From Symbiodinium sp. CCMP2592 (Eukaryota > Sar > Dinophyceae > Suessiales > Symbiodiniaceae), in contig CAJNDT010003380.1 of the NCBI GenBank assembly GCA_905221615.1, positions 186,001-250,000 on the forward strand: DNA of 64,000 bases. The letters are read 5' to 3'. The translations under genes were made by a program, and so were the position numbers. The notes beneath the pieces are model-generated. The model did no database searches, was not told where the DNA came from, and saw only the letters and a list, made by a program, of their open reading frames with translations. Shown one piece after another: positions 3,411 to 52,979 of this stretch (positions within the stretch are counted from its first letter, which is position 1; each line of letters starts with the position of its first letter).

Positions 3411-3513
3411 AGTCCAACTACCCAAGTATCATGTACTCTCAAAAATAGTACCTATACATAGCTACTATCCCAAGCCCGAGTACCTAGTTATTGGGTCCTT
3501 TGGACCCTTAGGG
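3411..3513. mobile_element. TIR-L element, copy 2 (opposite orientation)
   Basis: Reverse-complement orientation relative to copy 1. It ends directly against a TIR-F element (3522). Confidence 0.55.
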
Positions 3514-3521
3514 TTAGGCCC

Positions 3522-3650
3522 TATATGGGTGGTGGTCCAAATTATGGTCCCTTTTTGGGTAGCCTAAATATTAGGTGCCGTATTATAATAAGGACCCTAA
3601 ACCCTAAACCCTGAACTCTAAACCATAATTTTGACAACCACCCATATGGA
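3522..3650. mobile_element. TIR-F element, copy 1, with telomere-like insert
   Basis: Arms ATATGGGTGGTGGTCCAAAT and ATTTTGACAACCACCCATAT. About 25 bp of CCCTAAA repeats interrupt the right half, so telomere-like DNA arrived after the element. Confidence 0.65.
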
Positions 3651-3775
3651 CCTTTGGGAATCGCGAAGCCCTCATATGCAGACGACCAGTCTGAAGGACC
3701 TTACGCCGAAACCTGCTAAGGTTTTGGGGTTTAGGGTTTTTGGGGCTTGGGGCTTAGGGTTTAGGGTTAGGGTTT

Positions 3776-3910
3776 GAGTTACGGGCTTATCCCATACCTC
3801 ACGGTTTGCATCAAAAAGACCCGAGCAATGCAAATCCACCCACGAAGCCCGAAACTGGGATCGGATGGCTCGTTGCCTTGTTTTCGATACCTGGTAGGAC
3901 CAAGAAGAAT
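3776..3910 (-). CDS. Candidate exon followed by telomere-like repeats
   Basis: Minus strand reads SYQVSKTRQRAIRSQFRASW then VDLHCSGLFDANREVWDKP and runs into CCCTAAACC repeats. Basic then mixed composition. Not recognised. Confidence 0.25.
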
Positions 3911-4338
3911 CCGGGAGTTGGGATCTAGGATTGTGTATGGGGTGTTTAGCCTCTGGGGCTTCCAAAATTTCGGGGTTCCAGTCTGGGTAGGGAAATGGTA
4001 CCCGTAACGCACCCCTGTATGCCCTAAGCCTTTCAGCAACACCTACACCATAAATACCTAAACCCTAAACCAAAAAAATAGGACACGGTTTCACTTCGTG
4101 AAACAGCCTGACTGAGCCTTTGGGGAGTTTTTCTGGGCTCTGATCTAGAGCGGTAAAGGTCTTCGAGGTAAAGATGACGACTCGCTACTGAGGGGTATTA
4201 GGGGTTTTAGGGTTTAGGGTTTTATGGGTTTAGGACTTAGGGTTTTAGGATTCACGATTAGGGTGTTCTGGTTTAGGGTTTAGGGTAGATTTCAAAACCT
4301 GGCCGACAATAGCCTGCTGCAAAAAGTACAGCCAGCAG

Positions 4339-4438
4339 TGTCAAGACTACCACGCACGGACACTACAACATGAACAGCGACCTGCTGCTACCACTGCTTA
4401 CTGAATGCGACAAGGACTGCGGTAGTGTTGTGCTGCCT
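4339..4438 (+). CDS. Candidate exon upstream of an S4-like exon
   Basis: After CAGCAG the frame reads VKTTTHGHYNMNSDLLLPLL then TECDKDCGSVVLP and ends phase 0 at CCT|GTAAGG. A TIR-H element (4500-4596) lies in the putative intron before the next exon. No family is recognised. Confidence 0.3.
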
Positions 4439-4499
4439 GTAAGGCTCTAAGCAAAACGAACTAGCACCGCCAGATCGAGTGGACCTGCTGCAGTCGACA

Positions 4500-4596
4500 G
4501 AAAAAGGAGGGACCCTATAATACGGACCCCTAGGAATATACCCTTAATATAGCCATTATATACCCATTATATAGCCCATTATAGGATAGGGGTCTA
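4500..4596. mobile_element. TIR-H element, copy 1 (right arm truncated)
   Basis: Begins AAAAAGGAGGGACCCT and contains the TATAGCCATTATATACCCAT core seen in the full copies at 21731 and 36011. Confidence 0.55.
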
Positions 4597-4640
4597 GAGA
4601 GTCTAGAACCACAGTCATTGATATCACATGTTGCCGACAG

Positions 4641-4733
4641 GCATTCCTGGTGCTGCGACTGATACGTCTTTTCAAACTACTCGCCAGTATGTACACTCCT
4701 GCTGATCAGACAAGTTCTACTTTGACACTGCTA
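4641..4733 (+). CDS. Candidate exon with S4-like arginine periodicity
   Basis: Phase-0 exon of 31 codons between GCCGACAG and CTA|GTTTGTG, reading AFLVLRLIRLFKLLASMYTP then ADQTSSTLTLL. Positive residues every third position in a hydrophobic helix (R-x-x-R-x-x-K) resemble the voltage sensor of cation channels. It joins the upstream exon in phase. One helix is too little to prove a channel. Confidence 0.3.
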
Positions 4734-5052
4734 GTTTGTGAATTCTAATCAAAACCTAGAGCACGAAGCCCAATACCCTTGTACCTTGTATCCTCATCAC
4801 TATATGCGCCCCAAGCCCTGAACAGCCGGAATACGCACAAGAATCGGAGGGCACCTCCCGAAACTCGCAACCGGAACTCCGAAACTTAATCCGTACGCTA
4901 CGTCCTATGTAATGCATCACGCTGTAGTCTCTCTGCTTCAGTGGTCAAGTCAAGCAGCAAATCTTGAAAAGTCCTCCAAAACCCCATGTGGCAGACAAAA
5001 CCAAAGCCCCAGAATTAATCTGCATCGATATGTTTTGCTATTCATCCCCAAA

Positions 5053-5162
5053 ATATGGGTGGTTGTCAAAATTATGGTCCCGTTTTGGGTCCCTACGAGA
5101 ATACGGCACCTAATATTTAGGGTACCCAAAAAGGGACCCCAACTTTGACAACCACCCGTATG
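5053..5162. mobile_element. TIR-F element, copy 2
   Basis: Arms ATATGGGTGGTTGTCAAAAT and TTTGACAACCACCCGTATGT pair along most of their length. The loop contains ACGGCACCTAATATTTAGGG. Confidence 0.75.
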
Positions 5163-5442
5163 TCAAAGGTAGAAAAGAAGCCGAGGAACGAGGTGGTCCT
5201 GGGACCCATTGGCTGCGAAGCCCCACCTCGGAAGAGACAATGCGTGCTCCGATACTTTGAGAGTTTAGGGTTTAGGGCTTTTTTTTTGAGGGCACCAAAA
5301 AGGGGCTTTAAGGTTTAGGGTTTGGGTTTAAGGTTTTTTAGGCTGATGGTTTAAGGCTTTAAGGGGTAGGGTTTGGGGTCTAGGGCTAAGGTTCCAGGTT
5401 TAGGCTGAAAGCCCGAAAAGTAAGAACAAAAACATGGCCCAG

Positions 5443-5473
<31 letters not shown>

Positions 5474-6130
5474 GGCTGTTATTCTGCATACTTTTTGGTG
5501 TTCAACTAACGCTGGTTTTGTTTGCCGGGGGGGGGAAGGCGAGGTTTTTAGATTTATGCTGCAAGGTGTAACGGTTTTAGGGTTCATGAACTTGTTTGTT
5601 CGTTGGGTGCGTGATTGCAATGTTGGTGCACTGATGTGCCGCAAAAGCAGACTCAACCCCGACTCGCTCAAAATGAGCTGTCGGGTTGCAGCTACAACTC
5701 TTCGCCTCCTCACGCTTCACACACTCAACCTATTTTTCAACTCTTCACGCTACTCATCCTCAACCTTAGAAGCCAAAAAACATAAGCCTTCAAAATGTCC
5801 TAAAGCACTAAACCCCAGAACCCTAGAAACGGTTTAAGGTCTTTTAAAGTCACTACACAATCGATGGAACTCGGAAAAACTGACGGAAACAGTGTCAAGT
5901 CTTCCACGCTGCACAAAACCCTGCACCCTAAACCCCTCAAGCCCATAAACCCTAACGCCCTAAACTCCTGAACCATATACAGCAAAACCCTTTAACCCTA
6001 AACCCTAAACTGCTCTTAACCCTAAACCCTAAACCCAACACTCCAAAACCCCTAAACCTTATCAACGAAGCCCGGAGCCCCAGAAGTCCGAAACCCTAAG
6101 CCCAAACCCCTAAAGCCTTAAACCGGTGAA

Positions 6131-6223
6131 GTGCTAAAGCAGCCAAAGAAGCCCACTGCGGCTGGCGCAGGACTGCTCGCCGAGGCCATCTGTGCCACAT
6201 TGAGCTGCATCCTCGCGGCTTAT
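6131..6223 (+). CDS. Candidate exon ending in a hydrophobic helix
   Basis: Reads LKQPKKPTAAGAGLLAEAIC then ATLSCILAAY and stops at a GT donor (TAT|GTATAA). Telomere-like CCCTAAA repeats run up to its 5' side. Possibly a membrane segment; no family is recognised. Confidence 0.3.
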
Positions 6224-6792
6224 GTATAACAATAGGATTCAGGCTTCTGTAGTGTATTTGCTTGAGGGCTTTTGGGTTTAGAGATTCAAGGTTTAAGTGT
6301 TGTTGTTGAGCTCCTTTGTACCCCCGCCCATCCAGTTGTGCAACAGCAAGGCCATGAGGGCCAGGAGTGTATCGGGTTCAGCGTTGAAGGTTTATGGTAG
6401 AAGTTGGATCATGGTTATCCTCATGCCCTCCAGTAAGGTATAAGGAATCCTCGAACTAGTCATCCTTGGCCCATGCTCCAACTTAAGGGGGATCGGTGTA
6501 GTTGCTTGTCATGCAGGATTACTCTTTGGTCAAGGGCTAAGGAAGAAATAGCATGCTTTACGTATGCAGGGACTGGAGTTTCTTGCAATAGCTGTAGGGT
6601 TTAGTTTTAGGGTTTTGGGTTTACTGTACCTGAAACCGGAAGCCCCAAAAACCCAAAGCCCTCCACCATTTTTGAAGCTTCCACTGTCGAACCTGAAGCC
6701 CTGCTTGGAGGTTCATGGGTAGTTATAAGGGTTCCTTTAAGGGTCCCTTTAGAGGGATGTATGGGGATTCTACAAGGGCATAGGCTTAGGGT

Positions 6793-6922
6793 CTACTTAG
6801 AGGTTCATGGGTACTGGTAAGTAGTGTTATAACCAGGATGACGATACCAACTAATAACCGATGATCGGGCCTGTTAGGAGATTCCTAACGTCACTTATAA
6901 CTACCGACGAACCTCCAAGTAA
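6793..6922. mobile_element. TIR-A element, degenerate copy
   Basis: Arms TACTTAGAGGTTCATGGGTA and CTACCGACGAACCTCCAAGT. A further half arm lies at 6704-6730. Confidence 0.5.
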
Positions 6923-7490
6923 ACTTCCCCCCCAGGATCTAAGCCCGGTTCCAAACCTGTACCTTGAAGCTCGACACAACCCAGAAGCCTTGCAGAAATC
7001 TTAGGGCCCAAAAGCCCTGAAATGTGGTGTCTTGAGAGCAAAACTGATGATGTGTATTTCTTACAAGGCCAACGCACTGATGTAGGGCTGGGGGATAGAG
7101 TTTAGGGTCTCGGGATTTGGGGCTTAAGGCTTAGGGTCTGCAGGTTAGATGCTTGTGGGGGGTGTTCAGCATAAACTGCGAGCACCAATTCTCGCAATAC
7201 CAGCACACGATAATTAAACCGCACGATCGTATCACTGAAAACCACTGATCTGAAACCGTTCTACACAATACATTTGTGTGTATGTATGTGCGTAAGTATC
7301 TGTGCATATATGTACGTTTGCGACTGCAAGTACGCCCATATGCACGTGTGTATGCCTGCATGTAGGTATGAATGCACATATGCATGCATGTACTCTTTTT
7401 CCTGTGCCGTCATGATTTTAAAACTCGTTTTACTATGTGTTTAAACAGATATTGCCTACGTGGCCGTCGTCCCTGGGCCGCCACGTCTTT

Positions 7491-8690: not shown

Positions 8691-8750
8691 TGCGGTTTTT
8701 TCAAAACAAGTCAGGCCGAGTGGAACCTCTCGGCGAAACCACTCGCTTAC

Positions 8751-10036: not shown

Positions 10037-10074
<38 letters not shown>

Positions 10075-10970: not shown

Positions 10971-11060
10971 AATGCTCCTCAACTCAGCTGGCGACATGTC
11001 ACTCTCTCCTCAGCCCGCGATCGGTTAGGGCTGAGGCGAGGGTTTCGGGTTTGGGCTTTC

Positions 11061-11168
11061 CCAGAGAGCCCAGTACCCCTTAACTCAGGAATATACCTTA
11101 AATCATAATATGAAGCCCTATACAAATTTAACCATATTCCTTAATGAAGGGGTATTGGGCTCTCTGGG
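11061..11168. mobile_element. TIR-G element, copy 1
   Basis: Outer arms CCAGAGAGCCCAGTACCCCT and GGGGTATTGGGCTCTCTGG. Inner stem AGGAATATACCTTAAAT pairs with AAATTTAACCATATTCCTT. Confidence 0.7.
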
Positions 11169-11755: not shown

Positions 11756-11954
11756 GTAGAAGAACTTTAACAACGAACTACTCGAAGCAGAGAAGCAACG
11801 GCTGCAAGAATGAGTGCCGCCCCAAACCCTAAACCAGAGTTTAGGCTTTAGCATAGGCCCTGCACAACCCCAAGCCCTAAACCGAGTAAGGCTTTCAAAG
11901 CAAATGGCCCCCGCCTCCGATTTCTACAGATTGAGGCTGCTTGCATCATTACCC

Positions 11955-12055
11955 TGAGGCTCCATGTACACCCTAAACCGTTTAGGCCTTAAAGTACCTA
12001 TATAGGGACCCCCTTAAGGCTTAAGTATCTACTGTCAAGGTGTATGGAGCCTTTG
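11955..12055. mobile_element. TIR-E element, copy 1 (GGCTCC subtype)
   Basis: Arms AGGCTCCATGTACACC and GGTGTATGGAGCCTT. The core TAGGCCTTAAAG pairs with CTTAAGGCTTA. TIR-E copies are nearly full-length palindromes of about 100 bp and occur in GGCTCC and GGGTCC subtypes. Confidence 0.7.
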
Positions 12056-12195
12056 GGTTAGGCAGGCTCGAGAGTTGGAGCTGGCAGAGTCCCAACATAC
12101 ATCGATACCCTGCAAGGGTTCAAGTAGGGTTCCTTCAAGGGGTACCTTTTTCGGGCTCTATAAGGCTTCCTTAAGGGCTTTAGGGTTTAGTGCTT

Positions 12196-13230: not shown

Positions 13231-13601
13231 ACATGTTGACTGGAACGGGATGCTTTAGTACATCTTTATCGGCACTTTAAGAGAACATCATACATTGGCA
13301 CATGTTCGCACTATATGGGGATTGCACGGGGAGACATGTGAAGTATACGTTTACGGGAAATCTAAGCGGGCATTATAGTACATGTCTGTAACTTCTATTA
13401 TGTGAAGCAGGAATCTTAGTCAGAAGGCCGTGGTTGGGATTTCCACATGGTGCCACGTCGGAACCCAGACCAAACATACTCGAACAGGGCTTTGAGGTAG
13501 ATGATACTGATAAAACCACTGTAGTGGAACTGTGAAGGGATATACGAGTACTACAGAACTCTACCAGGCGCTTCTTGGATGTCCTATGATATACTGACCC
13601 T

Positions 13602-13705
13602 AAGGCTCCATGTACCCTTATAGTATATACTTAGGCCTCAAAGTACCTGTATAGGGACCCCTTTCAGGCTTAAGTATCTACTATAAAGGTACATGGAACC
13701 TTTGG
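13602..13705. mobile_element. TIR-E element, copy 3 (GGCTCC subtype)
   Basis: AAGGCTCCATGTACCCTTAT pairs with ATAAAGGTACATGGAACCTT. The CCCTT/AAGG pair differs from the GCCAT/ATGAC pair of copy 4, in register on both arms. Confidence 0.8.
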
Positions 13706-13744
13706 GTGAATAACTGTTGAATGCTTGCCAGGGTACTATCAGCT

Positions 13745-13989: not shown

Positions 13990-15130
13990 AAACCCTAAAC
14001 TGCATGCCGCGGTGCTTCGGGCTCTGAGGGCCGGCGGCGGCGATGCACGCGTTCCTCGTCCACGGCATGCGTGGGCTCGGGGTCGGGCCGACGGCGCCGG
14101 CGATCGGCGTCATGGTGCCTGCCCCCAAGGCTCCACGTAGCCACATAGTATATGCTTAGGCCTTAAAGGGGTTCCTATGTAGGTACTTGAAGGCCTAAGT
14201 GTATACTATATGACTACATGGGGCCTTAGGCTGCTTGCCGAGTCTGGAAAGCTAGGAGGTGCTTTGTCGGGGCTTTCTTTTTTTTGTGCAAGCGCTTCCC
14301 GCACGGTTCGGGGTGTTTCTCAGTTTAAGCCCTCTCGTGATCGACCTCACGCAAAATACCCTGAATTTCCGGGCTTTACCCTATGCCTCCAGGGACCTTA
14401 TTATGGGGTCCTTAAGGGGTCTAGGGCCCTAACTATGAGGTCCTTGGAGGGATAAGGTTAAGGCTTACAAGCTCGAGAAGAGATCTGAAGACAACCCTGA
14501 GTCGTCATGCCCCAGAAACCCCTAGTCTGCTCCGCAACACCCTATGGGTCCATGTACTCATATAGTATATACATTGGCCTTAAAGCTATATGGGCACATG
14601 GACCCCTAGGGACACCTCCTTCGTAAGATAATCGTCTCGGACATCAGTGATGCTCAGAAACGTGCTAATAGTCTACGATCGAAGCACCAGTCTGGTTGTG
14701 AGACCTGAAAGGTAAAATCTATACGCAAAGGAGTAGACCTACCTGGGATCTGGAAGCAGAGAGTGGTCAATCAAAACCTTCAAATCGGAGTCTGGGGTTT
14801 TGAACTCACGGCCTCTAGAGGTTCAAACTTTCATAGGGTGTATATTACAAGAAGCGTTGACCCATAAGTCCCCTTGCCTTCGTGCAAGTACAGCCTTAAT
14901 GAAAGCTGCTCATAATGACCATGTGGGAATGCAGTCGACTGCCGAGCTTAAGGTAGGGCTTGGTTAAACCCCTATAAACCCTACATGCATTTCCGAGTTC
15001 GGCATCAAGTGCTGGACAGCTGCGAATGCCGAGTCGTCGTCGTCGTAGTTGGCGCCTGCATGTTTCCGGACTTTACGGTTGAGCTTGGGCCACCTTCTGT
15101 GTTCGGTTTTTCGGGTTCTGTCTGTGCTTT
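13990..15130 (-). CDS. Asp/Arg-rich exon unit, copy 1
   Basis: Minus-strand cores: AGANYDDDDSAFAAVQHLMP with NSE (14986-15060), ITDVRDDYLTKEV (about 14612-14655, broken by a TIR-E element at 14542-14611 and missing part of the following codons), and HHDADRRRRRPDPEPTHAVD with EERVHRRRR (14030-14122). A TIR-E (14127-14229) sits directly beside the last exon. This copy looks partly degenerate. Confidence 0.45.
14127..14229. mobile_element. TIR-E element, copy 4, beside an Arg-rich exon
   Basis: AAGGCTCCACGTAGCCACAT pairs with ATATGACTACATGGGGCCTT. Left flank CCTGC and right flank GCTGC. Copies 2 and 3 of the exon unit lack it at the matching site. Confidence 0.8.
14542..14611. mobile_element. 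TIR-E element, copy 5 (GGGTCC subtype), inserted in an exon-like unit
   Basis: Short copy of about 70 bp with arms ATGGGTCCATGTACTCATAT and ATATGGGCACATGGACCCCT. It is flanked on both sides by ACACC (14537-14541 and 14612-14616). In unit 2 the same place reads TTAACACCTCATT without an element. Confidence 0.8.
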
Positions 15131-15969: not shown

Positions 15970-17290
15970 AGCTTGGTTTGGTACAATCAATGCATGCCGG
16001 ATCGGCAGGGGGCGTAGGCTCGGCATCGGGTCGACGGCGCCGGCGGTGCACTCGTTCCTCGTCCACGGCGTCATGGTGCCTGCTTTCTGATGCGAATTAT
16101 CTAGGGTTTCCTGTCTTTGCTTCATGCAGTGTTTTGGTTTCGAGGTTTCTAGTTTTTGGACCTTTTGTGGTCGACCTTAAGCAAATGGCCCTGAAATTCT
16201 GGTCTTGAGGCTTACGAGGTCGATCACGGATCTGACTACCGAATCGCCGACATCGGGCAATGCAATATCAACCCTGAGTCGTCATGGCCAGAAATCCCTA
16301 CCCAGTCGAAATCCTTAGCCATCGTTCGAGGCCACGATGCTTAACACCTCATTCGTAAGACGATCGTCTCGTACATCAGCGATGTTCAGAAATCAAAAAC
16401 GTGCTAGTAGCCTGCGCTTAGCAGACTACGCCTAGAAGGCAAACTCTATACACTATAGATCAAGTCAAGGAGTGAACTTGTTTAGGCCCTTACCCTAAGG
16501 CTAAGGACCCACATATTGGGCCCAAAGATCATACTATAGAAGGATTTTGGGCCATCTTGAGCCTCAGGGTTATAGTACCTTGATCCGGAACCGGCGATCC
16601 GTCAAGCAAACTGTTTCTCTCCAACTGCGTCTCTTGAAATCGGGGTCTGCCTCTAAGCCCTAAACCCTAAAATCCTATAATAACCCTACACCCCGAAACC
16701 CTACACCCCAAAGTCCGTAACCCTTAATCCATAAACCCCTAAACCCTAAACCCTAAAATCCTATAACCCTAAACACCTAAACCCTTACACCCTGATGCCC
16801 GTCAAACTCTTTGGCTTATAGGCATGCAGTAGCCGTTGACACTGACACACTAGGCCCCATGCTTTCGCCAGAAAGTACACTGCGGTACTTTATGGTAGGG
16901 CTCGGAGAAAATATGTATTTGTGAGTTCGGCATCAATCGCTGGACAGCTGCGAACGACGAGCCGTCGTCGTCGTCGTCGTAGTCGGTGCCTGCAAGTTTC
17001 CGGATTTAACGGTTGAGCTTAGGCCGGAGTTTCCTTCGGGACAGGGTTTAAGGCAAGGGTCCATCACCAAAATAGTAGATAGACTTACGTAGGCCTTGCA
17101 TCGTGCCTACACGGGAGCCCCGTGCAGCCCCTACGGTTGGTGGTATAAATCCTGCATTACCTTAATGGCCCTAGACTATGGGAATTATGGTATATTCCTT
17201 GTTCTGTGTAATTCAGGATTTATATCATCAGCCGTAGTATCTAGGCTTGGGCCACCTTGTGCATTCGGGTGTTTCGGCGTTCGTGGGTTC
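15970..17290 (-). CDS. Asp/Arg-rich exon unit, copy 2
   Basis: Minus-strand exon cores in order: AGTDYDDDDDGSSFAAVQRL with MPNSQ (16923-16998), NIADVRDDRLTNEVLSIVAS with NDG (16318-16388), and HHDAVDEERVHRRRRRPDAE (16006-16086). Relative to copy 1 it carries an extra ~220 bp (about 17025-17245) with a half TIR-E and a full TIR-D, bounded by GCTTAGGCC and GCTTGGGCC. Confidence 0.5.
16495..16582. mobile_element. TIR-Q element, copy 2
   Basis: Contains CATATTGGGCCCAAAGATCA and TTTTGAGCCTCAGGG as in copy 1, between a GA/CT-rich stretch and a telomere-like tract (16655-16800). Confidence 0.5.
16655..16800. repeat. CCCTAAA-type telomere-like tract
   Basis: Imperfect CCCTAAA and CCCTACA units. Confidence 0.8.
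17131..17237. mobile_element. TIR-D element, copy 1
   Basis: Arms CTACGGTTGGTGGTATAAAT and ATTTATATCATCAGCCGTAG. The inner stem GGGAATTATGGTATATTCC is shared by all D copies. It lies in an insertion that unit 1 lacks. Confidence 0.8.
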
Positions 17291-22450: not shown

Positions 22451-22611
22451 AATAAGGAACCCCAAAATAATGTCTAGGATGCCCAGTAACCTAGGAATAA
22501 AAATGCCTCTCTTTTTTGGTATTGGGTAACTTTATAAGGAACCTAGGACTACAAAAAGGGAATAAGGGTACTACTGGGCATCCTAGTAATAAGGAGCCCC
22601 AAAATAATGTT
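22451..22611. mobile_element. TIR-K element, copy 1, with 22-bp flanking direct repeats
   Basis: The element proper is 22474-22587, ends CTAGGATGCCCAG and CTGGGCATCCTAG. ATAAGGAACCCCAAAATAAT lies on the left and ATAAGGAGCCCCAAAATAAT on the right. The flanking sequence resembles part of a TIR-U. Confidence 0.7.
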
Positions 22612-23365: not shown

Positions 23366-23476
23366 ATATGGGAGTTTCCGAAAATTAGGGGTACCTTATT
23401 TGGCGGTCCTTAGAATAAGGATCCTACTATTTAGGGTACTACATTAGGGTCCCCTATTTTCGGAAACTCCCATATG
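23366..23476. mobile_element. TIR-C element, copy 2
   Basis: ATATGGGAGTTTCCGAAAAT pairs with ATTTTCGGAAACTCCCATAT perfectly over 20 bp. Inner stem AAGGATCCTACTATTTAGGG. Confidence 0.85.
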
Positions 23477-28387: not shown

Positions 28388-28470
28388 GACCTAAGACCCT
28401 TAACTCAAGAGAAACGCGAGGTGTTGCATGTGACCGAAGGATTGCCGGGCGATGAGTTTTGGAATCCCTG
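28388..28470 (+). CDS. Candidate exon abutting a TIR-R element
   Basis: After ATTGCAG the plus strand reads DLRPLTQEKREVLHVTEGLP then GDEFWNP, and a palindromic element begins at once (28470-28574). This is a clear exon/element junction of the kind seen in the kinase gene. Confidence 0.35.
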
Positions 28471-28574
28471 TAGGCTCATACCCTACCCCTTCTTTCGGGC
28501 ATCTGCTTTCTATGCAACAGATCCCAACCACAACGCTACGTATCCTCAAAAAGGGGTAGGGTATGAGCCTCTAG
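28470..28574. mobile_element. TIR-R element
   Basis: TAGGCTCATACCCTACCCCT pairs with AGGGGTAGGGTATGAGCCTC. Single copy in the window, directly against a candidate exon. Confidence 0.75.
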
Positions 28575-29441: not shown

Positions 29442-29550
29442 CCCAGACCTTCCAAAATCCCTTAATTAAGTAATATACCTTAAATCATATTAGGGACCCT
29501 ACTATAATTCAAGGTATATTCCTTAATTAAGCGGTTTTGGAAGGTCTGGG
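29442..29550. mobile_element. TIR-G element, copy 3
   Basis: CCCAGACCTTCCAAAATCCC pairs with GCGGTTTTGGAAGGTCTGGG; the inner stem TATACCTTAAAT pairs as well. Best-preserved G copy. Confidence 0.85.
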
Positions 29551-29589: not shown

Positions 29590-29696
29590 ATGGGAGTTTC
29601 CGAAAACAGGGGACCCTAATATAGTACCCTAAATAGTAGGATCCTTATTATAAGGACCCCAACAAAGGTACCCCCTATTTTCGGAAACCCCCACAT
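29590..29696. mobile_element. TIR-C element, copy 5
   Basis: ATGGGAGTTTCCGAAAACAG pairs with CTATTTTCGGAAACCCCCAC. It sits 40 bp from TIR-G copy 3. Confidence 0.8.
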
Positions 29697-30435: not shown

Positions 30436-31637
30436 GTAGTCGTACAGTAGTCGTACAGTAGTAGAACAGCTCTGATACTGTAATCGACGAAGCCGGAGGC
30501 CTGCTAAAACAAGATGTTTTTCCCGACCTCTTGGTACTATTCAACCAAGATTGACCATGAGTCGAAAGGATTGCGGCATTAAGAGGACTGCACAACAAAT
30601 GCAAAATCCTGAAGAACAAGCGCATATTAGACGGTCGCGTAGTTAAAGCCTGTGCCACGTTAAGCTAAAGAAGCCCTCCATCTGGAAACCTTATTCATCC
30701 TAAACCACTACAGCAATGTATCGCAAGGACTGCTTTACACCTTAGAGACTAGAAAACAACAACCTACACAAGAACAAGAAGTGCCCTACCCACACTTATT
30801 CACTAGCCACGCCCAAATCCCAAATCTCAAAGCCGTGGAGCCATAGAACGCCAACGCCTTAGAGACTCGGAAACCTTAGGTTGAACCCAACGCCACCCCC
30901 GACATCACGGCGGGCAGCAGCATTTCTCTGACCAAGCTGTCGACATTCCTTGGGGTTCGCAAACAGTGGAGACCGAACTGCGGTCACCGGTTTAGAGGCC
31001 ATTTGCTTCGTGGGCTCGGGGCCTATAGGGTTCAGGACTGTATATACTTGCTGTGCTTCTGTTCTCGGTGCATTGAAGTTCACAGCGCAGGAGTACAAAG
31101 CCTGCGATATGGCAGTTTTTCAGCAAAAGCTCAACTGAAGCTTAGCACCTTTCTTCACCAAAAAAACTACCTGAACCCTGAACATATCGCTAAGGGTCCA
31201 TCTGCCCATATTTGTAATCATATATACTTTGACCTCAAAGGGTTTCTTCATAAAGGTACTTTAAGGTGGAGACGCCCAATGCTTGCCAGACCTGCCGAGA
31301 CTCTGCGTACGTGGGACGTTCGCGTCCTTCTCGACGTCGTAGTCGAGAATCTGGAGACGTTAGACTTTCTCGTCCACTTAGTTGCTGAGTTCATAAGCCC
31401 CCAAAAGTGCACATTTTCAGTTTTATAGTGTGTAAAATTATTTCAAAAAGTGTAAAGTGGAAAGTGTATCCACTCAGCTACTAAGTCCAGTTTCCAAGGA
31501 TATGCTTCATCTTTGGGATACATGCCCTAAACCCTAAACCCAAAACCCTAAACCCTAAACCCTAAGCGACAGAATAGGCTTCAGGTCATCATCCCCGGAG
31601 CCTCTACAGCCTCAAGGTGCAACTTCACAGGCCTTAC

Positions 31638-32720: not shown

Positions 32721-32830
32721 CCTACGGTTGATGATATAAATCCTGCATTACCTTTAATGGCCCTAGACTCTGGGAATTATGGTATGTTCCTTATTATGGG
32801 TAGTGCAGGATGTATATCATCAACCGTAGG
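32721..32830. mobile_element. TIR-D element, copy 2
   Basis: CCTACGGTTGATGATATAAA pairs with TGTATATCATCAACCGTAGG. Confidence 0.85.
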
Positions 32831-36131: not shown

Positions 36132-36218
36132 CCTGAAGCCCTAAGAAGACTTCGCCTTTTGCAGCTAAGGCGCCATCCCGCTCGTAAAGGTAGACCTGCG
36201 GTCGCCACTCCATTCCCC

Positions 36219-36323
36219 AAGGCTCCATGTAGCCATATAGTATATACTTAGGCCTCAAAAGGGTTCCTATGTAGGCACTTTAAGGCCTAATTGTATATAC
36301 TATGTCACTACATGGAGCCTTAG
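36219..36323. mobile_element. TIR-E element, copy 7 (GGCTCC subtype)
   Basis: AAGGCTCCATGTAGCCATAT and CACTACATGGAGCCTTAGG pair; GTATATACTTAGGCCT pairs with AGGCCTAATTGTATATAC. Confidence 0.85.
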
Positions 36324-36333
36324 GGATTTAGAG

Positions 36334-36442
36334 TTGGGTGGTTGCCAAAATTAGGGTCCCTGCAAGGGTCCTTATTATAATACGGCACCTAATACTTAGG
36401 GTAATTACCCAAAAAGGGACCATAATTTTGACAACTACCCAG
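36334..36442. mobile_element. TIR-F element, copy 3
   Basis: TTGGGTGGTTGCCAAAATTA pairs with CATAATTTTGACAACTACCC. Starts about 11 bp after TIR-E copy 7. Confidence 0.8.
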
Positions 36443-37852: not shown

Positions 37853-37960
37853 CTTACGGTTGATGATATAAATCCTGCATTACCTTAAGGACCCTAAACT
37901 ATGGGAATTATGGTATATTCCTTATTATGGGTCATGCAGGATTTATATCATCAACCGTAG
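37853..37960. mobile_element. TIR-D element, copy 3
   Basis: CTTACGGTTGATGATATAAA pairs with TTTATATCATCAACCGTAG; the inner stem GGGAATTATGGTATATTCC is intact. Confidence 0.85.
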
Positions 37961-39453: not shown

Positions 39454-39568
39454 TACTTGGAGGTTCATGGCTAGTTATAAGTGGAGTCATAAGTCCCCTA
39501 ACAAAGGCTATAAAGTGCAGCTATCCTCCGTATAGCCCTACTTATAACTACCCCTGAACCTCCAAGTA
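39454..39568. mobile_element. TIR-A element, copy 3
   Basis: TACTTGGAGGTTCATGGCTA pairs with CTACCCCTGAACCTCCAAGT. Confidence 0.8.
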
Positions 39569-39699: not shown

Positions 39700-39818
39700 G
39701 TAGGGCTTGCGACAAAGAGCTCTTGATCTCAAAGCTTCGGGAAGCAAGAGCTATGGTAGAGGGGGATCCAAAAGCTAGTTCCCATCTCCGGTCAATGCTC
39801 AACTTCGGGCCATATTCC
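39700..39818. other. Exon candidate of uncertain strand next to a TIR-E element
   Basis: Plus strand reads KELLISKLREARAMVEGDPK then ASSHLRSML. Minus strand reads YGPKLSIDRRWELAFGSPST, which faintly recalls a kinase activation segment (GSP). Both frames are open and the element at 39821 abuts it. Position and strand would suit the kinase continuation, but no DFG is present, so the assignment is not made. Confidence 0.2.
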
Positions 39819-39820
39819 CT

Positions 39821-39923
39821 AAGGGTCTATGTACCCATATAGCATATACTTTGGGCCCAATGTACATATATAGGGAATACTTTAAGGCCAATGTATATAC
39901 TTTATGAGTACATGGACCCTCAG
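39821..39923. mobile_element. TIR-E element, copy 9 (GGGTCC subtype)
   Basis: AAGGGTCTATGTACCCATAT pairs with TATGAGTACATGGACCCTCA. It lies about 55 bp downstream of the kinase catalytic-loop exon. Confidence 0.8.
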
Positions 39924-39978
39924 GGATTGTGGCTGGATGATGTTTGGTTCGTAGCAATGCTGCGAGGGTGCGCGCTTC

Positions 39979-40117
39979 CTTGACAGTTCAGCATGGCATT
40001 GGCCGGCTTGAGGTCGAGATGGAGCAGTCCAGCTTTGTCGTGAAGAGCCTGGGGGAGTCGAGGCACAGTTCCAAAGCCATCTACGCAAACTTCACATCTG
40101 ACTTTCGGAACGACACC
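39979..40117 (-). CDS. Protein kinase, catalytic-loop exon
   Basis: Starts after AACGCAG. It includes VDGFGTVPRLPQALHDKAGL and then LHLDLKPANAMLNCQ. HLDLKPANAML is the catalytic loop HxDLKPxNxxL, with the aspartate and asparagine intact. Leu replaces the usual Arg of HRD, making it a non-RD type. The preceding LPQALHDKAGL is helix alphaE. A GA donor (CAAG|GAAGCG) is possible. A TIR-E element (39821-39923) begins about 55 bp downstream. The DFG and APE exons were not identified with confidence. Confidence 0.65.
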
Positions 40118-41100: not shown

Positions 41101-41632
41101 TAGGGGTACCATCATCGTCATCATCATCACACTCATGCTGGACGTCTTGACCGTCATAACTGTGGTCACAGTCATCACCGTGATCATCATGGCCGGCAGC
41201 AGTGGATCATGTTGCATGGCAGCATGAGCAACTTCGACACGACAGTCGGCGCAAGCTGAGCGGGCATACAAAGAGGGTGAAGACGATACTGTTAGTGCTG
41301 ATGACACTTCGGGAAACAAAGCCTCCATGCCGACACTGAATCTGCCAAGCATTGTAACAGCACAGCACTTCGTAACAGCATGAGACAGCTCTGAACTCCG
41401 AGCCTGTACTCCTTGAACCATGTCGTGGAAGAGACCGAGGATGTACGGCCTGAGTTCAGAAGTTTGACCGTGTTCGGCATAGTTGGGCTGCTTCTGTCGC
41501 TTGGGGGGGGCTGCATTCTTATGACATGGAACCTACGAATGTAATGGTGGGTGACTCTACTGGCAGTCAGCAACTTCAGCCATGCTGCGTGCTGCCACTG
41601 CTGCCACTGCTGCCACAACTGCGACTCGTGCT
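41101..41632. other. Unique spacer between opposed trinucleotide arrays
   Basis: About 0.5 kb of non-repetitive DNA, open in part on the minus strand (SVSAWRLCFPKCHQH and similar), not recognised. It would be the loop if the two arrays paired. Confidence 0.4.
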
Positions 41633-42490: not shown

Positions 42491-42601
42491 TGGGAGTTTC
42501 CGAAAATAGGGGACCCTGATATAGTACCCTAGACTCTAAATAGTAGGCTCCTCATTATAAAGACCCCAAAAACAGGTACCCCTAATTTTCGGAATCTCCT
42601 C
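42491..42601. mobile_element. TIR-C element, copy 6
   Basis: TGGGAGTTTCCGAAAATAGG pairs with CCTAATTTTCGGAATCTCCT. Confidence 0.8.
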
Positions 42602-42834: not shown

Positions 42835-42944
42835 TACTGGGAGGTTCATGGGTAGTTACAAGTATGTAAGTACGATAAATACACTTGTAACCCATATTAG
42901 GGGACTTATAACCCTTCTTATAACTACCCATGAACCTCCAAGTA
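42835..42944. mobile_element. TIR-A element, copy 4
   Basis: TACTGGGAGGTTCATGGGTA pairs with TACCCATGAACCTCCAAGTA. Confidence 0.8.
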
Positions 42945-43640: not shown

Positions 43641-43754
43641 TACTTGGAGGTCCATGGGTAGTTGTAAGTGGGGTTATAAGTCCCCTACGATGGGTCATAA
43701 CCCTAGTTATCCTACTTATAACCCTACTTATAACTACCCATGAACCTCCAAGTA
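43641..43754. mobile_element. TIR-A element, copy 5
   Basis: TACTTGGAGGTCCATGGGTA pairs with TACCCATGAACCTCCAAGTA, with one mismatch in 20. Confidence 0.85.
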
Positions 43755-43869: not shown

Positions 43870-43961
43870 CTTCGCGGCTTCCCCATGAGTTGCAGCCCCT
43901 GGTGTCGCTGTCGCATTTCTTGAGGAAGTCGGAAAGCTCCCCGCCGTTCATGTAAGGCATC
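43870..43961 (-). CDS. Protein kinase, hinge/alphaD exon
   Basis: Reads MPYMNGGELSDFLKKCDSDT then RGCNSWGSREGW. MxYMNGGELxDFL is a textbook kinase hinge and alphaD segment. An AG acceptor (TTCGAG) lies at about 43963-43962. The 3' end is not resolved. A TIR-A element (43641-43754) lies 115 bp downstream, in the next intron. Confidence 0.65.
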
Positions 43962-44019: not shown

Positions 44020-44160
44020 AAGGGCTACTATACGGGCTTTATATAGGGACCTTAACAATTAGATTTGGGGTTTGCGGCCCATTACGTATGCAATGATTAT
44101 AAGCAAGGAACGACCGAAACAGAATAGGTAATTACTAATGTCCCGATGATAGTTTCGGGC
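44020..44160. mobile_element. TIR-U element, copy 3
   Basis: GGGCTACTATACGGGCTTTA on the left; ATAGGTAATTACTAATGTCC with a CGATGATAG end on the right. Imperfect arms. Confidence 0.45.
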
Positions 44161-44351
44161 TTCTTCTAGGCAATGATGGGGCTGCCTAGCTAGGCATTAA
44201 GGGTTGTGAGGAAACCCGGCTTAAGCCCACTGGAAGTTGTGACTGTCCTCGAACTATGCTGTATCCCACCTATTTCCTATTCTCGAGACGCTTGCCGAGC
44301 GAATCCGGCATGCATTCGCCCCGTAGTCGATCGTAGGGCTAGCATCATCCC

Positions 44352-44586
44352 CTGAACCCTAAACCCTAAAACACCAAATCCCTCAAAATCCCTAAGGCCC
44401 TAAAACTCCAAATCCCTCAAAAACCCTAAGGCCCTAAAACTCCAAATCCCTAAAACCCTGAAGCTCTAAAACTCCAAATCCCTCAAAAACCCTGAGGCCC
44501 TAAAACTCCAAATCCCTCAAAAACCCTAAGGCCCTAAACCCCAAATCACTAAACCCCAAGTCCCTAAACCCCAAGTCCCTAAACCC
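44352..44586. repeat. Tandem ~37-bp units derived from CCCTAAA
   Basis: Unit built from CCAAATCCCTCAAAAACCCT followed by AAGGCCCTAAAACT, repeated about five times and then shorter CCCCAAGTCCCTAAA units. In the kinase gene intron. Confidence 0.85.
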
Positions 44587-45251
44587 TTTTATCCATATGA
44601 AGTGGAGGGACCCAAACCTTTCGGGGGTTCCGCAATCCGAATCCGAAGGAAAAGCCACTGAGGTCCCCAATGCTTTGTGCCCAAGCTGAACGGTTTATAG
44701 GCATTTTAGGCTTTGGGGGCCTAGAGGCACCCGAACCGTAGACTTGATTAGAGGATGGTTTCTTGACTAACCGACATACGCCAATCAGTTTTCAAGTGCG
44801 GGCTTGGCGGAACCATTGTTGGGACAGCCCGTCTTTCATGAAAAGCATGCAGACCACTAGAAACCCGGACGACAATGGAACTGCTAATAACCGACAAGCA
44901 CAAGGGGATGGAAGGGATTTCTCTCTAGATCTATGGGAGACTAACTCCCAAACCCTAGGCCCTGCAACCCTAAACCCCAGGCCCTAAAACTCGAAACCGT
45001 AAACCCCTAAAACTCTAAACCAAAACTAAAGCCGACACCCCTAACGCTCTGAACCCTAAGCCCACAATAGGCCGTAAACCCTAAACCCCAAATACGGAGT
45101 GAAAGGTTCAGTGTTCCAACATGCTTGCAAATCTCGGGCCGAGGATCCTTGTTAGTCTTGATAGAACTCTGTAACCGAAAATTCGTCAAACGAGTCCATG
45201 TCAGTTCTGAAGATGACAATAGGCTAGGCAGCGCGAGCCATCTAACTCCTG

Positions 45252-45370
45252 CCTGGAGGATCATGGGACTTAGTAACTGGGTTATTACTAGGGTGACTAC
45301 ACTTATGATTTCTTATAACCCCAATTAGGGCACTTAAAACCATACTTACTAAGTCCCCTGATCCTTTAAG
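45252..45370. mobile_element. TIR-B element, copy 3, at a kinase exon edge
   Basis: CCTGGAGGATCATGGGACTT pairs with AAGTCCCCTGATCCTTTAAG. Read on the gene strand it begins about 15 bp after the alphaC exon and ends in CTCCAG. Confidence 0.85.
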
Positions 45371-45385
45371 TGGCCAAAGCGGCAT

Positions 45386-45484
45386 AATCCAATATCCAGC
45401 TTCGTTGTCGATGAACGCCGGCTCGCCCACGGCAGAAATGCAGAACTCCGAGACACCGCGCATGTCCTCCAAAACCTTGATTTC
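45386..45484 (-). CDS. Protein kinase, alphaC-helix to hinge exon
   Basis: Starts phase 0 after CAG (position 45485). Reads EIKVLEDMRGVSEFCISAVG then EPAFIDNEAGYWI. This is the alphaC glutamate region followed by strands beta4-beta5 up to the hinge, and it joins in phase to the VxVK exon. The last codons are immediately followed by a TIR-B element (45252-45370), so that element lies at the start of the intron. A GA donor (TATTG|GATTAT) would join it to the next exon to give GYW-MPYMNGGEL. Confidence 0.6.
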
Positions 45485-45572
45485 CTGCCTGGCGATCAAC
45501 AGGGCTCCAACACCAGCCCATGCTCCGCAAGAGCTACTGTTCGAATCGGTATGTGTGTGTGTATATATATAT

Positions 45573-45800: not shown

Positions 45801-46189
45801 CCATGTATGTATGTATGTGTAAAGGGCAACTCTCCTTTCCGACCGCCTTTAGACAGCATGCTTCGGGTTTGGGGGCTCTTTATCGCTTTAAAACCCTGAC
45901 CCTACTGCCCCAAAAGTCGGATAGAAGAGCTGACAGCTAGAAAGCTGTAGATCCCCTGGCTGGGATGCAGGGTTTAGGGTTTAGGCCCTGAACATAAAGA
46001 AGGCCTGAACAGCTTGGTCGATGAGCTGCTCTTTTTTTGCACTTTTAGGGTTTAGGGTTCGGGGTTTAGGGCTGCAGCTCCAAAAGCGCTTCCTGGGCCG
46101 AGAAAACGGGCACAGGGCTCATGCTCAAGATCCGGTTTGCTTTGCCGGGCACCAGAAATATCGCCCCATTTGGCTCTACAGTCGAAGCC

Positions 46190-46284
46190 CAAAAGTTGGA
46201 AACCCCATAGCCTCGATCCTGAAGAGTAGTGTATGGGGAATCCCAGCACTATTTGGCCTTAATCCGGCTTCCGACTTTATGGGG
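46190..46284. mobile_element. TIR-M element, copy 2
   Basis: AAAAGTTGGAAACCCCATAG pairs with the GGCTTCCGACTTTATGGGG end. The DNA just before it (46080-46190) is open on both strands. Confidence 0.65.
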
Positions 46285-46326
46285 CTTACTCTAAACCCTA
46301 TATGAACCCTAAACCCTATACCTTAG

Positions 46327-46421
46327 AAGCTGCCCCCACCCTGTAATAGTGAATATAAGGATTAAATTAGGGCCCTATTATATTCCTATTATACCACTAT
46401 TACAAGGTGGGGGCCCCTTCT
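46327..46421. mobile_element. TIR-N element
   Basis: AGAAGCTGCCCCCACCCTGT pairs with TACAAGGTGGGGGCCCCTTC; inner AATAGTGAATATAAGG pairs with CCTATTATACCACTATT. Single copy. Confidence 0.8.
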
Positions 46422-46569
46422 AACCTATACCCTATAACCCCGCAAACCTTCTCCCGGCCACGAGGAGTCCTCCAGCTCGAGGATTGGGCCTTGAAGCCCT
46501 AGACCCCGAACCCAAAGCCGGACCTCAACACGCTGAGATCCGAAACCTGAAAACCCGAAAAACCCTGCA

Positions 46570-47294: not shown

Positions 47295-47410
47295 TACTTG
47301 GAGGTTCATGGGTAGTTATAAAAGGGGTTATACGTCCCCCAAACTATGGGTTATAACTCTAGTTATTCTACTTATAACCCTCCTTATAACTACCCATGAA
47401 CCTCCAAGTA
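47295..47410. mobile_element. TIR-A element, copy 6
   Basis: TACTTGGAGGTTCATGGGTA pairs perfectly with TACCCATGAACCTCCAAGTA. Best-preserved A copy. Confidence 0.9.
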
Positions 47411-47950: not shown

Positions 47951-47974
47951 AGATTTGTAACCCGAAGGCTATAA

Positions 47975-48869: not shown

Positions 48870-49774
48870 ATAACCTTCCGCCCAGGAGACACTGAAGCTG
48901 GTCGCAATGAGGGACACGTTTTCACCTCTCCAAGTCTTCGGGCGTTGCTATAGGGGACTTCAAAAACAGAAAAGGGTCCTTAAGGGACTATAAGGGTTAC
49001 TATAAGGGATCTATACCGGTACTGTAATATAGGCGCCTTAAAGTAGTTAGAATGAGTGAGGTTTTGGAGACAGTGATACTATAAATACGCTAAAGAACCC
49101 TCCAAATCGTATTGTATAGTAATTACATGGTTGGGAGTCAGGACAAAACGTTTTCCGATTAGTCTACTGACGTTCAGACGACTAACTTGGTTTCAGGTCG
49201 GCACGCCAAACCCACCGTGTCAAGACTTAGTGTGTGGGGCTTAGTGGTCTGATAGATACTTCAGCACGCGAGGGTTGACCCTGTAGCCAGCAACCCTTAA
49301 CGCTCAACCAAGCCCTAAACCCTTGAACCCCAAAGCAACACAAATCATACCCACCCTCTAGAGGCCCTGCGAAAACCTAAAACCACAAAATCCATGTTTT
49401 GGGAGGACCGCAACCAAACATCAAACTCATAGCACAGGGGCCTTATCAAATGGAACAAGGATTTGAGTTTTAGTGTCGCTATCAGGAACACAAGGACCGT
49501 GAATTTTGGAGTAACTACAAATAGCTTTCATTGTATTAATATCGCCGCGAGTGTATCTAGGCTATAAAGGGTTATAATCCTGCATCCGGGAACTAAGCTT
49601 TAACCCTGCGTGGTGTCTGACAGGGGCACAGATCTAATTTAGGGTTCAAACTTTTTGGGGTTTCATGGCGGGTTTTCGGAATGAGGGTCTAGGGATGTGA
49701 GGTTTATGATTTTTCAGGGTTTAGGGACAACGGGTTTGGGGTTTTAGGAGCAGATTTACGAGCCCCTCGCGGCC

Positions 49775-50150
49775 TCATGACCCTAAACCCTAAACCTTAA
49801 ACCCCTAAACCCCTAAACTCTAAACCCCTAAACCCTAAACCCCTAAACCCTGAACCCCTGTAAACCTCCAAACCCTGAACCCCTAAACCCCTAAACCCCT
49901 AAATCCCTAAACCCTAAACTCTAAACCCTAAACCCCTAAACCCCCAAAACTCTAAACCCTAAACCCTGAACCGATTTCATCCCCCAGCCTGCCCGAAAAC
50001 GCTGGAACTCACTCTCGTCGAGGGCACGATACCTCGGATTCATGGTCGTTGGGCTCAGGGCTTAGGGGTCAACGGTTTAGGGTTTAGGCTTTAGGGTTTA
50101 GTTTAGGGGTTTAGTGCTTAGGGGTCAAGGGTTTAGGGTTTAGGGCATAG
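49775..50150. repeat. CCCTAAA array followed by TTTAGGG tract
   Basis: Minus-type units 49775-49975 and plus-type units 50060-50150, about 85 bp apart. Confidence 0.85.
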
Positions 50151-50594
50151 CAGCATTTTGGGGTAGACTTCATGCCTGTCTTTTTCGGAAGACAATTTGA
50201 AGTAAAGAATTATGGAGCCAAGTTGCCAAGGGTCCAGAGTCGAAGGTCCAGCTTACGGTCTTGCGGCTGCAGGGTTTAGGGGAAAAATGGTTTTGGGGTT
50301 TCCAAAACCCGGAACCCTAAGTCCTAAACTCTAAACCCCTTCACCGTAAACCCCAGACCCTAAATCCTAAACCCTATAAGCCCTATAAACCCTATAGATC
50401 CCTTTATGGAACCCTACAGAACCCTTAAGGTACCCTTTCAGGAACCCTCAATCCTAAACCCAGACTAGCCAAGAAACCAGAAGAGCCACTCAAACCTCAA
50501 GGCGGATTTGCGGATCGCCTGCTGCGACCAAAACTTATAGAAATATAGTTGATGGTTTAGGGTTTAGGAGAATTTAGGGTTTAGGGGTTTATAG

Positions 50595-50697
50595 GGATTG
50601 GAAAAAATCCTGCATTACCTTAATTTCTCTAGACGATGGGAGTTATGGCATATGTTCTTTATGATGGGTAATGCAGGTTTTATATCATCCACCATAC
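50595..50697. mobile_element. TIR-D element, copy 4
   Basis: Left arm eroded (GGGATTGGAAAAAATCCTGC); the right arm GTTTTATATCATCCACCATA and the inner stem are recognisable. Confidence 0.65.
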
Positions 50698-50934
50698 GTG
50701 TTATCGTGGCAGGCTGTTGTTTAGGGGTTTCGGGTTTAAGGCGGCCTTCATAATATAAAACAGGGTTTGGAAGGTATGTTACACATTCGTAGCAGTATAA
50801 GAGTACTCACGAACCCCGAGGAAAAGTGTTACTACATGTTGCTTCATAATCGGATTTCTAGATGAACTGGCTTATCTTTGTCGCCGAGCTCAGCTCAGCG
50901 GGACAATGATTGCACAACGGAGCTCCTTCGCCCT

Positions 50935-52025
50935 ATGCCCTAATCCTAAACCCTAAACCCCTAAACCCCAAACCCCTAAACTAAACCCTAAACCCCTAAA
51001 CCCCTAAACTAAACCCCAAACCCCTAAACTAAACCCCAAACCCCAAACCCCTAAACCCCAAACCCCTAAACTAAACCCTAAACCCCAAACCCCTAAACCC
51101 CAAACCCCAAACCCCTAAACTAAACCCTAAACCCCAAACCCCTAAACCCCAAACCCCAAACCCCTAAACTAAACCCCAAACCCCTAAACTAAACCCCAAA
51201 CCCCTAAACTAAACCCCAAACCCCTAAACTAAACCCTAAACCCCAAACCCCTAAACCCCAAACCCCAAACCCCTAAACTAAACCCTAAACCCCACACCCC
51301 TAAACCCCAAACCCCAAACCCCTAAACTAAACCCCAAACCCCTAAACTAAACCCCAAACCCCTAAACTAAACCCCAAACCCCTAAACTAAACCCTAAACC
51401 CCAAACCCCTAAACTAAACCCTAAACCCCAAACCCCTAAACTAAACCCCAAACCCCTAAACTAAACCCCAAACCCCTAAACTAAACCCCAAACCCCTAAA
51501 CCCTAAACCCCTAAACTAAACCCTAAACCCCAAACTAAACCCCCAAACCCCTAAAAACCCCAAACCCCTAAAAACCCCAAAAAAACCCTAAACCCCAAAC
51601 CCCTAAACTAAACCCCAAACCCCTAAACTAAACCCCAAACCCCTAAACCCCAAACCCCTAAACTAAACCCTAAACCCCAAACCCCTAAACCCCTAAACTA
51701 AACCCTAAACTAAACCCCAAACCCCTAAACTAAACCCCAAACCCCTAAACTAAACCCCAAACCCCTAAACTAAACCCCAAACCCCTAAACTAAACCCTAA
51801 ACCCCAAACCCCTAAACTAAACCCACTAAACTAAACCCCAAACCCCAAACCCCTAAACTAAACCCCAAACCCCTAAACTAAACCCCAAACCCCTAAACTA
51901 AACCCCAAACCCCTAAACTAAACCCTAAACCCCAAACCCCTAAACCCCAAACCCCAAACCCCTAAACTAAACCCCAAACCCCTAAACTAAACCCCCTAAA
52001 CTAAACCCTAAACCCTAAAGCCTAA
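50935..52025. repeat. ~1.1-kb satellite-like array of a 20-bp telomere-derived unit
   Basis: Dominant unit CCCCAAACCCCTAAACTAAA, tandem and interspersed with CCCTAAA, CCCCAAA and CCCCTAAA units. One strand throughout. The longest homogeneous telomere-like block in the window. Confidence 0.95.
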
Positions 52026-52756
52026 AGCCGAAACCCCCTGGAGCCGGTCAGTGGGACAAGGGCGGCTCGGGGGTTTTAGGGCGTGGCTTTTGGGGTTCCC
52101 TGGGCTCTTTAGCTCCTTATTCAATAGGGGTTTAGGGGTTTCGGGTTTAGACTTTAGGGTTTAGTTTAGGGTTTAGGGGTTTAGGGTTTAGGATTTAGTT
52201 AATCATCCCTGGCTCCTTAGCTCCTCCAATATCAAAGGTTAGGTAGGGTTTGCGGTGCAATGCTTTGCCACCAGGAGCTGCCCAGGTTTTGTCCGGAAGT
52301 GTCTAGGTGTTCTTGGGAATTCGTTGAGCTTCGTTGAGTTTTGTTCAGTTTTGGTGGTTTGTTCAAGTTTGTATCCATTGCTTTGATAGTGTTTCAGGCT
52401 TTCATGGTTCTGCACCCCATAGGCGACTATTACGAGGAAACCCTCTGTATCTTGCCCGCCCATATCCCCAATGGTCTGGGCGGTTAGTACAAACTATATA
52501 AAAACTGTTCCACTTCCACAAGCAAATCCTTCACAATCATACCTGGCACACCACTGCCATGATTTCGATGACAATCTGTGTTGGCGCAAGCCCTGATCCT
52601 CAAAACCTAAACCCTAAACTCGAAACCCTAAACCCCTAAACCCTGAAACCCTAAACCCTCAACCCAAACACAGCCTGAACTGCAAACCATGGCACCTGTG
52701 AACGTTTGCCAGGGCCTCGCCCCGCATCATCGATTCCGACCCGACAGCCTGACCAG

Positions 52757-52859
52757 ACGGTTGATGATAGAATTCCTGCATTACCTTAAGGACCCTAAAC
52801 TATGGGAATTATGGTATACTCCTTATTATGGGTATTGCAGGATTCATATCATCAACCGG
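52757..52859. mobile_element. TIR-D element, copy 5
   Basis: ACGGTTGATGATAGAATTCC pairs with GGATTCATATCATCAACCG. Confidence 0.8.
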
Positions 52860-52872
52860 AATACTGCAGGTT

Positions 52873-52979
52873 TACTTTGGAGGTTCATGGTAGGGATAAG
52901 TGGGGCTTTAAGTCCCCTAGTATAGGCTGAAACTAGAATCATCTTGCTTATCACCTAAGTGTCCATGAACCTCCAAGTA
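52873..52979. mobile_element. TIR-A element, copy 7
   Basis: TACTTTGGAGGTTCATGGTA pairs with the GTCCATGAACCTCCAAGTA end. Fourteen bp from TIR-D copy 5. Confidence 0.75.

Follow-up and report, generated by a model that had tools for sequence, protein, structure and literature searches.

Short foldback elements in Symbiodinium sp. CCMP2592 probably fall into several transposition classes of MITEs and are mostly not intron-makers

The window analyzed here, a 64,000-nucleotide stretch of Symbiodinium sp. CCMP2592 (contig CAJNDT010003380.1, positions 186,001 to 250,000, assembly GCA_905221615.1), contains many short palindromic elements that an initial annotation had sorted into nineteen families. 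With a probability of about 85%, we read the listed families as short, non-autonomous foldback miniature inverted-repeat transposable elements (MITEs). They would represent three or more transposition classes, distinguished by whether the target duplication measures 2 bp, 3 bp or about 8 bp, and would mostly be unable to make introns; a further class with CT...AG ends and a 4-bp duplication could do so. Like MITEs in general, the elements are short, carry inverted terminal arms, and are dispersed in many copies.

The palindromes are real. With tandem and telomere-like repeats masked, a search at a score of at least 32 and a span of at most 320 found 45 palindromes in the window, of which 43 lie before 53 kb; when all were compared with one another, most fell into families. 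A sample of 20 other 10-kb stretches of the same genome (200 kb, of which about 11 kb is N and about 189 kb readable), taken at hand-picked positions on contigs matching a family G query and thus non-random, yielded 129 foldbacks at a score of at least 34, against 3 in first-order Markov sequence (simulated from the masked bases and somewhat shorter). Blast grouping of window and sample gave 215 instances in 26 groups, 19 of which have at least two members; 57 stretches of the window, all before 53 kb, belong to such groups. Within the window this amounts to 12 multi-copy groups, and some families that had been kept apart merge, as C does with E. Two of the starts cited initially, 29442 (family G) and 45252 (family A), are exact to the base; the third, 28470 (family O), is a genuine palindrome but has no second copy in the window and sample. 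Ten window copies of family A have both ends recognizable, one of them listed twice (37536 and 37566).

Members of multi-copy groups occur at 0.80 per kb in the sample, 0.89 per kb in the whole window and 1.08 per kb in its first 53 kb. They occupy about 8% of the sampled DNA; if the sample, which is non-random, were typical, the genome would hold about 0.88 million copies, or 89 Mb. The assembly searched comprises 1,098,105,373 bases in 5383 contigs, and the best 40 of 2755 first-look places for the family G element at 29442, query included, are 92–100% identical to it. The overall G+C content of the published S. tridacnidorum CCMP2592 assembly is 51.0% (PMC8045281), and that of the window is 48.5%.

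Aligned copies show sharp ends, and the expectation that they would be flanked by short direct repeats was borne out for six families. Expected counts were obtained by re-pairing the flanks. A 2-bp repeat flanks family G (CCCAGA..TCTGGG; 17 of 19 copies, 1.4 expected), family D (CGGTTG..CAACCG; 14 of 17, 4.9 expected), family C/E (TGGG..CCCA; 19 of 27, 7.2 expected) and family A (CTTGG..CCAAG; 41 of 53, 28.2 expected). Family B, with ends CCCTAAGG..CCTTAGGG, has a 3-bp repeat in 13 of 18 copies (0.6 expected). The seven copies of family P (TTAGAAG..CTTCTAA) have a repeat of about 8 bp, exact in three (0.0 expected) and with at most one mismatch in five. Among the 53 A copies is a subset fetched once the ends had been fixed, in which 24 of 27 rows match, or 22 of 25 distinct copies after allowing for an overlap between two loci that brought in two of the copies twice. 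In the window, the exact duplication is kept in 27 of 38 rows.

Stowaway, Tourist and hAT-type MITEs are likewise short, with palindromic arms, many copies and a family-specific duplication length (TA, 3 bp, 8 bp). The elements described here differ from them in that their 2-bp duplications are often not TA, those of B are mostly not TWA (10 of 13), and the ends of P are TTAGAAG. An assignment to the Tc1/mariner type (Stowaway) by TA duplication, which we take to be its mark, fails: matching A copies have TA in 33 of 41 cases (TG in 4, CA in 4), and G uses nine different dinucleotides, TA in 2 of 17 copies and others in 15. As a separate observation, TA-ended palindromes in the window and sampled loci have exact 4-bp flanking repeats 22 times against 3.26 expected, perhaps in part a product of AT-rich sequence.

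The unequal lengths of the duplications point to cuts of different stagger and so to several transposition classes that have a foldback build in common; they also make it doubtful that the families form a single system. A single transposase family with loose end recognition could be imagined to move them all, since length, layout and inner boxes are common to the families and A, C/E, D and G all duplicate 2 bp; we consider it unlikely, as the 3 bp of B, the approximately 8 bp of P and the 4 bp of the CTGGGTTC family described below point to different staggers. Under the MITE reading, transposases presumably encoded elsewhere would recognize the arms and move the elements, which would insert with a class-specific stagger wherever they land, mostly in spacer or long introns.

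Whether an element could make an intron was assessed from its ends, by asking which duplications would yield a length-neutral GT, GC or GA..AG intron; GA and GC were admitted as donors since dinoflagellates use both (PMC11453091). CT...AG ends with a 4-bp duplication allow 54 of 256 duplications. None of the three duplications used by A works, nor do any of 16 for each of D, G, S3 and F7; a single one works for C/E (GG, of 16) and for B (AGG, of 64). Judged in this way, the families tested, P apart, would mostly be unable to make introns, because their ends and duplication length almost never give a length-neutral GN-AG pair. In the CT...AG class with its 4-bp stagger, by comparison, the element would bring the acceptor and the duplication would supply the donor for about a fifth of possible targets, and a copy landing in an exon could then be spliced as an intron.

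A candidate for such an event lies elsewhere in the genome, in locus L013 (G000:C569:300001-310000), which carries an ADP-ribosylglycohydrolase gene (PF03747, E values of 5.4e-28 and 1.1e-17 in two frames). Here a 119-bp palindrome, CTGGGTTCTTGTTAA...TTAACAAGAACCCAG, at 1635-1753 with GCTA on both sides, splits a conserved stretch of the gene, with QWTDDTA before it and MALCL after it. With the element and one GCTA removed, the sequence reads QWTDDTAMALCLADSLL and the conserved stretch is restored; the alignment of this peptide with 2cwc and 6dre, the two solved ADP-ribosyl hydrolases matched, continues across the junction. The intron would be of GC-AG type, its donor coming from the duplication and its acceptor from the element. 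The family has ends CTGGGTTC...GAACCCAG; of 21 copies, 16 carry an exact 4-bp duplication, which in three of them begins with GC or GA (GCAA, GAGA and GCTA). These 21 are the L013 copy and 20 fetched of 39 further places listed (L051 and L056 share flanking sequence); the places are the best 40 of 628 first-look candidates, and the others are 78–79% identical to the L013 copy. Taken as a class, CT...AG palindromes have seven exact 4-bp repeats against 0.38 expected; the seven include the L013 element and a family A copy viewed from an outer position. The genome gave no empty paralogue of the L013 exon: the one further match, 93% over 68 bp, is preceded by other repeats and was set aside as uninformative. 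For a CT...AG foldback in the window, joining the coding-like stretch that ends at 31377 across the element gave no in-frame fit with plausible splice sites. As far as sequence can tell, a putative element of introner type, built like the listed families, is present in this genome.

Within the window, the listed families can be compared with the introns of a kinase gene on the minus strand, which was recognized by codon scoring and by eye. Four putative exons, joined by eye, pass the curated cut-off of PF00069 with an E value of 2.2e-8; their matches to solved kinases have E values of 1.9e-4 or weaker. Pfam scans of many, though not all, frames of the window gave no match above a curated cut-off. 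PDB matches for three window frames were discarded as low-complexity noise (best E value 0.00011, nearly all in a trinucleotide stretch). The four putative introns measure about 0.5, 1.4, 2.4 and 1.4 kb (about 5.7 kb together) and carry elements at 45252, 43643, 42837 and 42491, as well as an F7 copy recognized by its end motifs at 44046. Direct repeats on the minus strand border two of the putative introns, CAGGCTC in one (about 41401-41410 and 40045-40055) and ATGCC in the other (45381-45385 and 43956-43960); they recall the repeated intron borders reported in dinoflagellates.

The family A element at 45252 lies about 10–15 bp past the exon part ending in YWIMP, inside the putative intron. 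A database peptide, P0001 (75 residues, from a 517-bp contig), is identical to the window at 38 of 41 residues up to LWP and then continues GVRWLAL. The window flanks joined without the element and one TG copy read YWIMPLWPGVRWLAL, as in the element-free P0001. A protein search with the filled site returned P0001 again and nothing else. The element is best read as a probable insertion, with a 2-bp duplication, inside a pre-existing intron; it is the one case for which an element-free relative is known, at the peptide level.

The initial annotation had held that the elements are concentrated in introns, abut exon candidates and form an introner system or a relative of one. On the strictest form of this view, the listed families are themselves introners: each insertion creates an intron, whose splice sites coincide with the ends of the element or lie beside them. 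Their size, foldback build and duplications are like those of known introners, which have been published for this genus (PMC9860276) and have been counted in 3.2–6.3% of genes in the Symbiodiniaceae isolates examined (PMC10522408). The A element close to the putative donor would fit, as would an L element whose edge adjoins the putative acceptor of the P-loop exon, at 46176/46177; this was the one exon edge seen to abut an element, at an exon start that is not independently fixed. However, none of the four putative kinase introns, whose borders were drawn by eye, equals an element, and the expected coincidence of element ends with both splice sites was not seen in this gene. Nor was the claimed concentration confirmed; the density in these introns is 0.7 per kb (0.9 with the F7 copy), close to the background values given above. 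Element ends and duplication length would permit a neutral intron for rare targets only (P having been tested roughly), and the relative P0001 lacks the element. We thus regard it as quite unlikely that the listed families are introners: the resemblance to MITEs and the L013 relative are what survives of the proposal, and for the families tested (A, B, C/E, D, G and P), with duplications of 2, 3 and about 8 bp and ends that rarely fit, it is not supported.

It is very unlikely that the palindromes instead persist because they form RNA or DNA hairpins that serve the host in transcript processing, chromatin or replication, their arms changing together for that reason. In favor of this reading, complementary double changes are more frequent than after shuffling in G (23 against 5.9), B (22 against 10.2), C/E (19 against 11.8), A (11 against 6.1) and S3 (7 against 2.5), and arm identity is higher within than between copies in G (0.876 and 0.838) and B (0.799 and 0.762). 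Against it, D shows 1 double change against 0.5, the within-copy excess is small in D (0.812 and 0.809), A (0.680 and 0.676), C/E (0.653 and 0.636) and S3 (0.786 and 0.773), the window holds no Rfam match at or above a family's gathering score, and, as the main reason for setting this reading aside, the covariation in G tracks subfamilies. Six paired columns split two G subfamilies wholesale, and the other changes are mostly one-sided (84 cells); this pattern fits better with source elements bearing different arm pairs than with selection on each copy. It was also observed that the subfamilies of G and of C/E share a common core and differ in both arms (in G, AGACCTTCC/GGAAGGTCT versus AGAGAGCCC/GGGCTCTCT), the pattern that an exchange of arm pairs would leave. 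In another sampled locus (L006:1190-1344), a piece of the family G arm is repeated in tandem in 34-bp steps beside an ordinary element.

Several observations weigh against the MITE reading as formulated here. The ends and duplication lengths were partly picked on the same copies that were then counted, S3 (8 of 13, 5.5 expected) and F7 (9 of 18, 6.4 expected) show no clear excess over re-pairing, and the exact duplication is missing in 11 of 38 window rows. Family P, tried only through a 4-base stand-in, would allow 19 of 256 duplications. The introner case was seen once, coding context being apparent for the L013 copy alone. Open frames of at least 40 residues on both sides of the joined flanks, a weak test, are no commoner in the 4-bp family (3 of 21) or in five others (22 of 129) than at random points (23%); reading-frame continuity was accordingly dropped as a family marker, the families being indistinguishable from random points. 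P0001 is a peptide from a 517-bp contig, and its match extends only seven residues beyond the junction before the peptides diverge. Finally, no transposase or autonomous partner turned up, and no search aimed at one was made.

MITEs and introners are both known kinds of element, and multi-family introners of dinoflagellates have already been published (as cited in PMC11453091). In S. microadriaticum, the introners of Gozashti et al. 2022 (PMC9860276) carry the 3' splice site in the element and take the 5' site from a 4-bp duplication, and the example given is 115 bp long. Compared by description, the L013 family is like them in its inverted arms, 4-bp duplication and splice-site layout; A, B, C/E, D, G and P differ in having 2-, 3- and about 8-bp duplications, for the most part without such a splice pair, and none of them was seen as an intron. 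The elements of Roy et al. 2023, as cited in PMC11453091, resemble those described here in forming many coexisting small families; they were counted as introns, whereas ours lie in spacer-like DNA and within larger putative introns. Introner elements of Amoebophrya (PMC7789003) likewise have inverted repeats and short direct repeats and form hairpins, but their repeats of 3–5 nt overlap the exon-intron borders of non-canonical introns, and the duplications here are tied to the element ends. The 2-, 3- and 8-bp families were not found described in the literature searched, which leaves most subscription journals outside its coverage.

Introners are a leading explanation of mass intron gain, but only some elements turn into introns. 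We tentatively raise the possibility that intron-making is decided by arithmetic, terminal bases by duplication length, among classes of the same build in one genome. If this were true, introners would be the fringe of a general MITE burst that is compatible with splicing, and sequence alone would suffice to predict which MITEs make introns. With foldback families of similar size in one nucleus, some compatible with splicing and others not, the compatible ones have built-in controls, and the comparison of the two classes within one genome is worth following. It should be noted that searches for inverted repeats within dinoflagellate introns may take ordinary MITEs for introners. Coordinates of the window features are collected in Table 1.

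Table 1. Foldback elements and putative kinase exons in the window (positions are those of the window; 2-bp duplications are given as left/right).
Feature	Position	Strand	Remarks
Family A	45252..45370		TG/TG; kinase intron 2; P0001 relative without element
Family A	6796..6919		TA/TA
Family A	39456..39566		TA/TA
Family A	42837..42942		TA/TA; kinase intron 3
Family A	43643..43752		TA/TA; kinase intron 3
Family A	47297..47408		TA/TA
Family C/E	5056..5158		TA/TA
Family C/E	23369..23472		TA/TA
Family C/E	29591..29693		CA/CA
Family C/E	36335..36441		GT/GT
Family C/E	42491..42601		Without matching duplication; one end eroded; kinase intron 3
Family F7	44046..44144		By end motif; without matching duplication; kinase intron 2
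Family D	17134..17234		TA/TA
Family D	32725..32826		TA/TA
Family D	37857..37957		TA/TA
Family D	52758..52858		GA/GA
Family G, second arm type	11060..11168		TT/TT
Family G	29442..29550		AG/AG
Family B	11952..12057		3-bp duplication TTA
Family B	13598..13706		TGA
Family B	14123..14231		TGC
Family B	36215..36325		ATT
Family B	39817..39925		ATT
Family P	46323..46423		8-bp repeat CCTATACC; in telomere-like stretch, weak alone
Family L	46177..46293		Edge adjoins putative kinase P-loop exon
Family O palindrome	28470..28572		Follows coding-like stretch; no second copy in window and sample
CT...AG foldback	31377..31485		4-bp repeat TCCA; introner-type layout; starts at end of coding-like stretch
CT...AG foldback	22474-22586		Same layout, without repeat
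Putative kinase exon SCGAWAGV..YWIMP	45381..45533	-	Ends by eye
Putative kinase exon, catalytic loop HLDLKPAN	39978..40048	-	Ends by eye

Other features of the window and sampled loci were recorded in passing. Telomere-like TTTAGGG stretches at interstitial positions account for about 2.6% of the window and for 0–6.6% of the sample loci; long degenerate arrays of this kind lie at 44350-44590 and 50940-52200, with a strong base skew in 50–52 kb. A long interspersed nuclear element (LINE) at 53255-62338 has an open frame of 3027 residues, of which 501 align at 99% identity with a protein of Symbiodinium sp. CCMP2592. Its insertion may be young, because the 53–64 kb part of the window holds no family element. 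One sampled locus, which is partly N, contains an AT-rich segment (L018:534-1262; 34% G+C) with an open frame and no family element; this frame may resemble a packaging ATPase of large DNA viruses.

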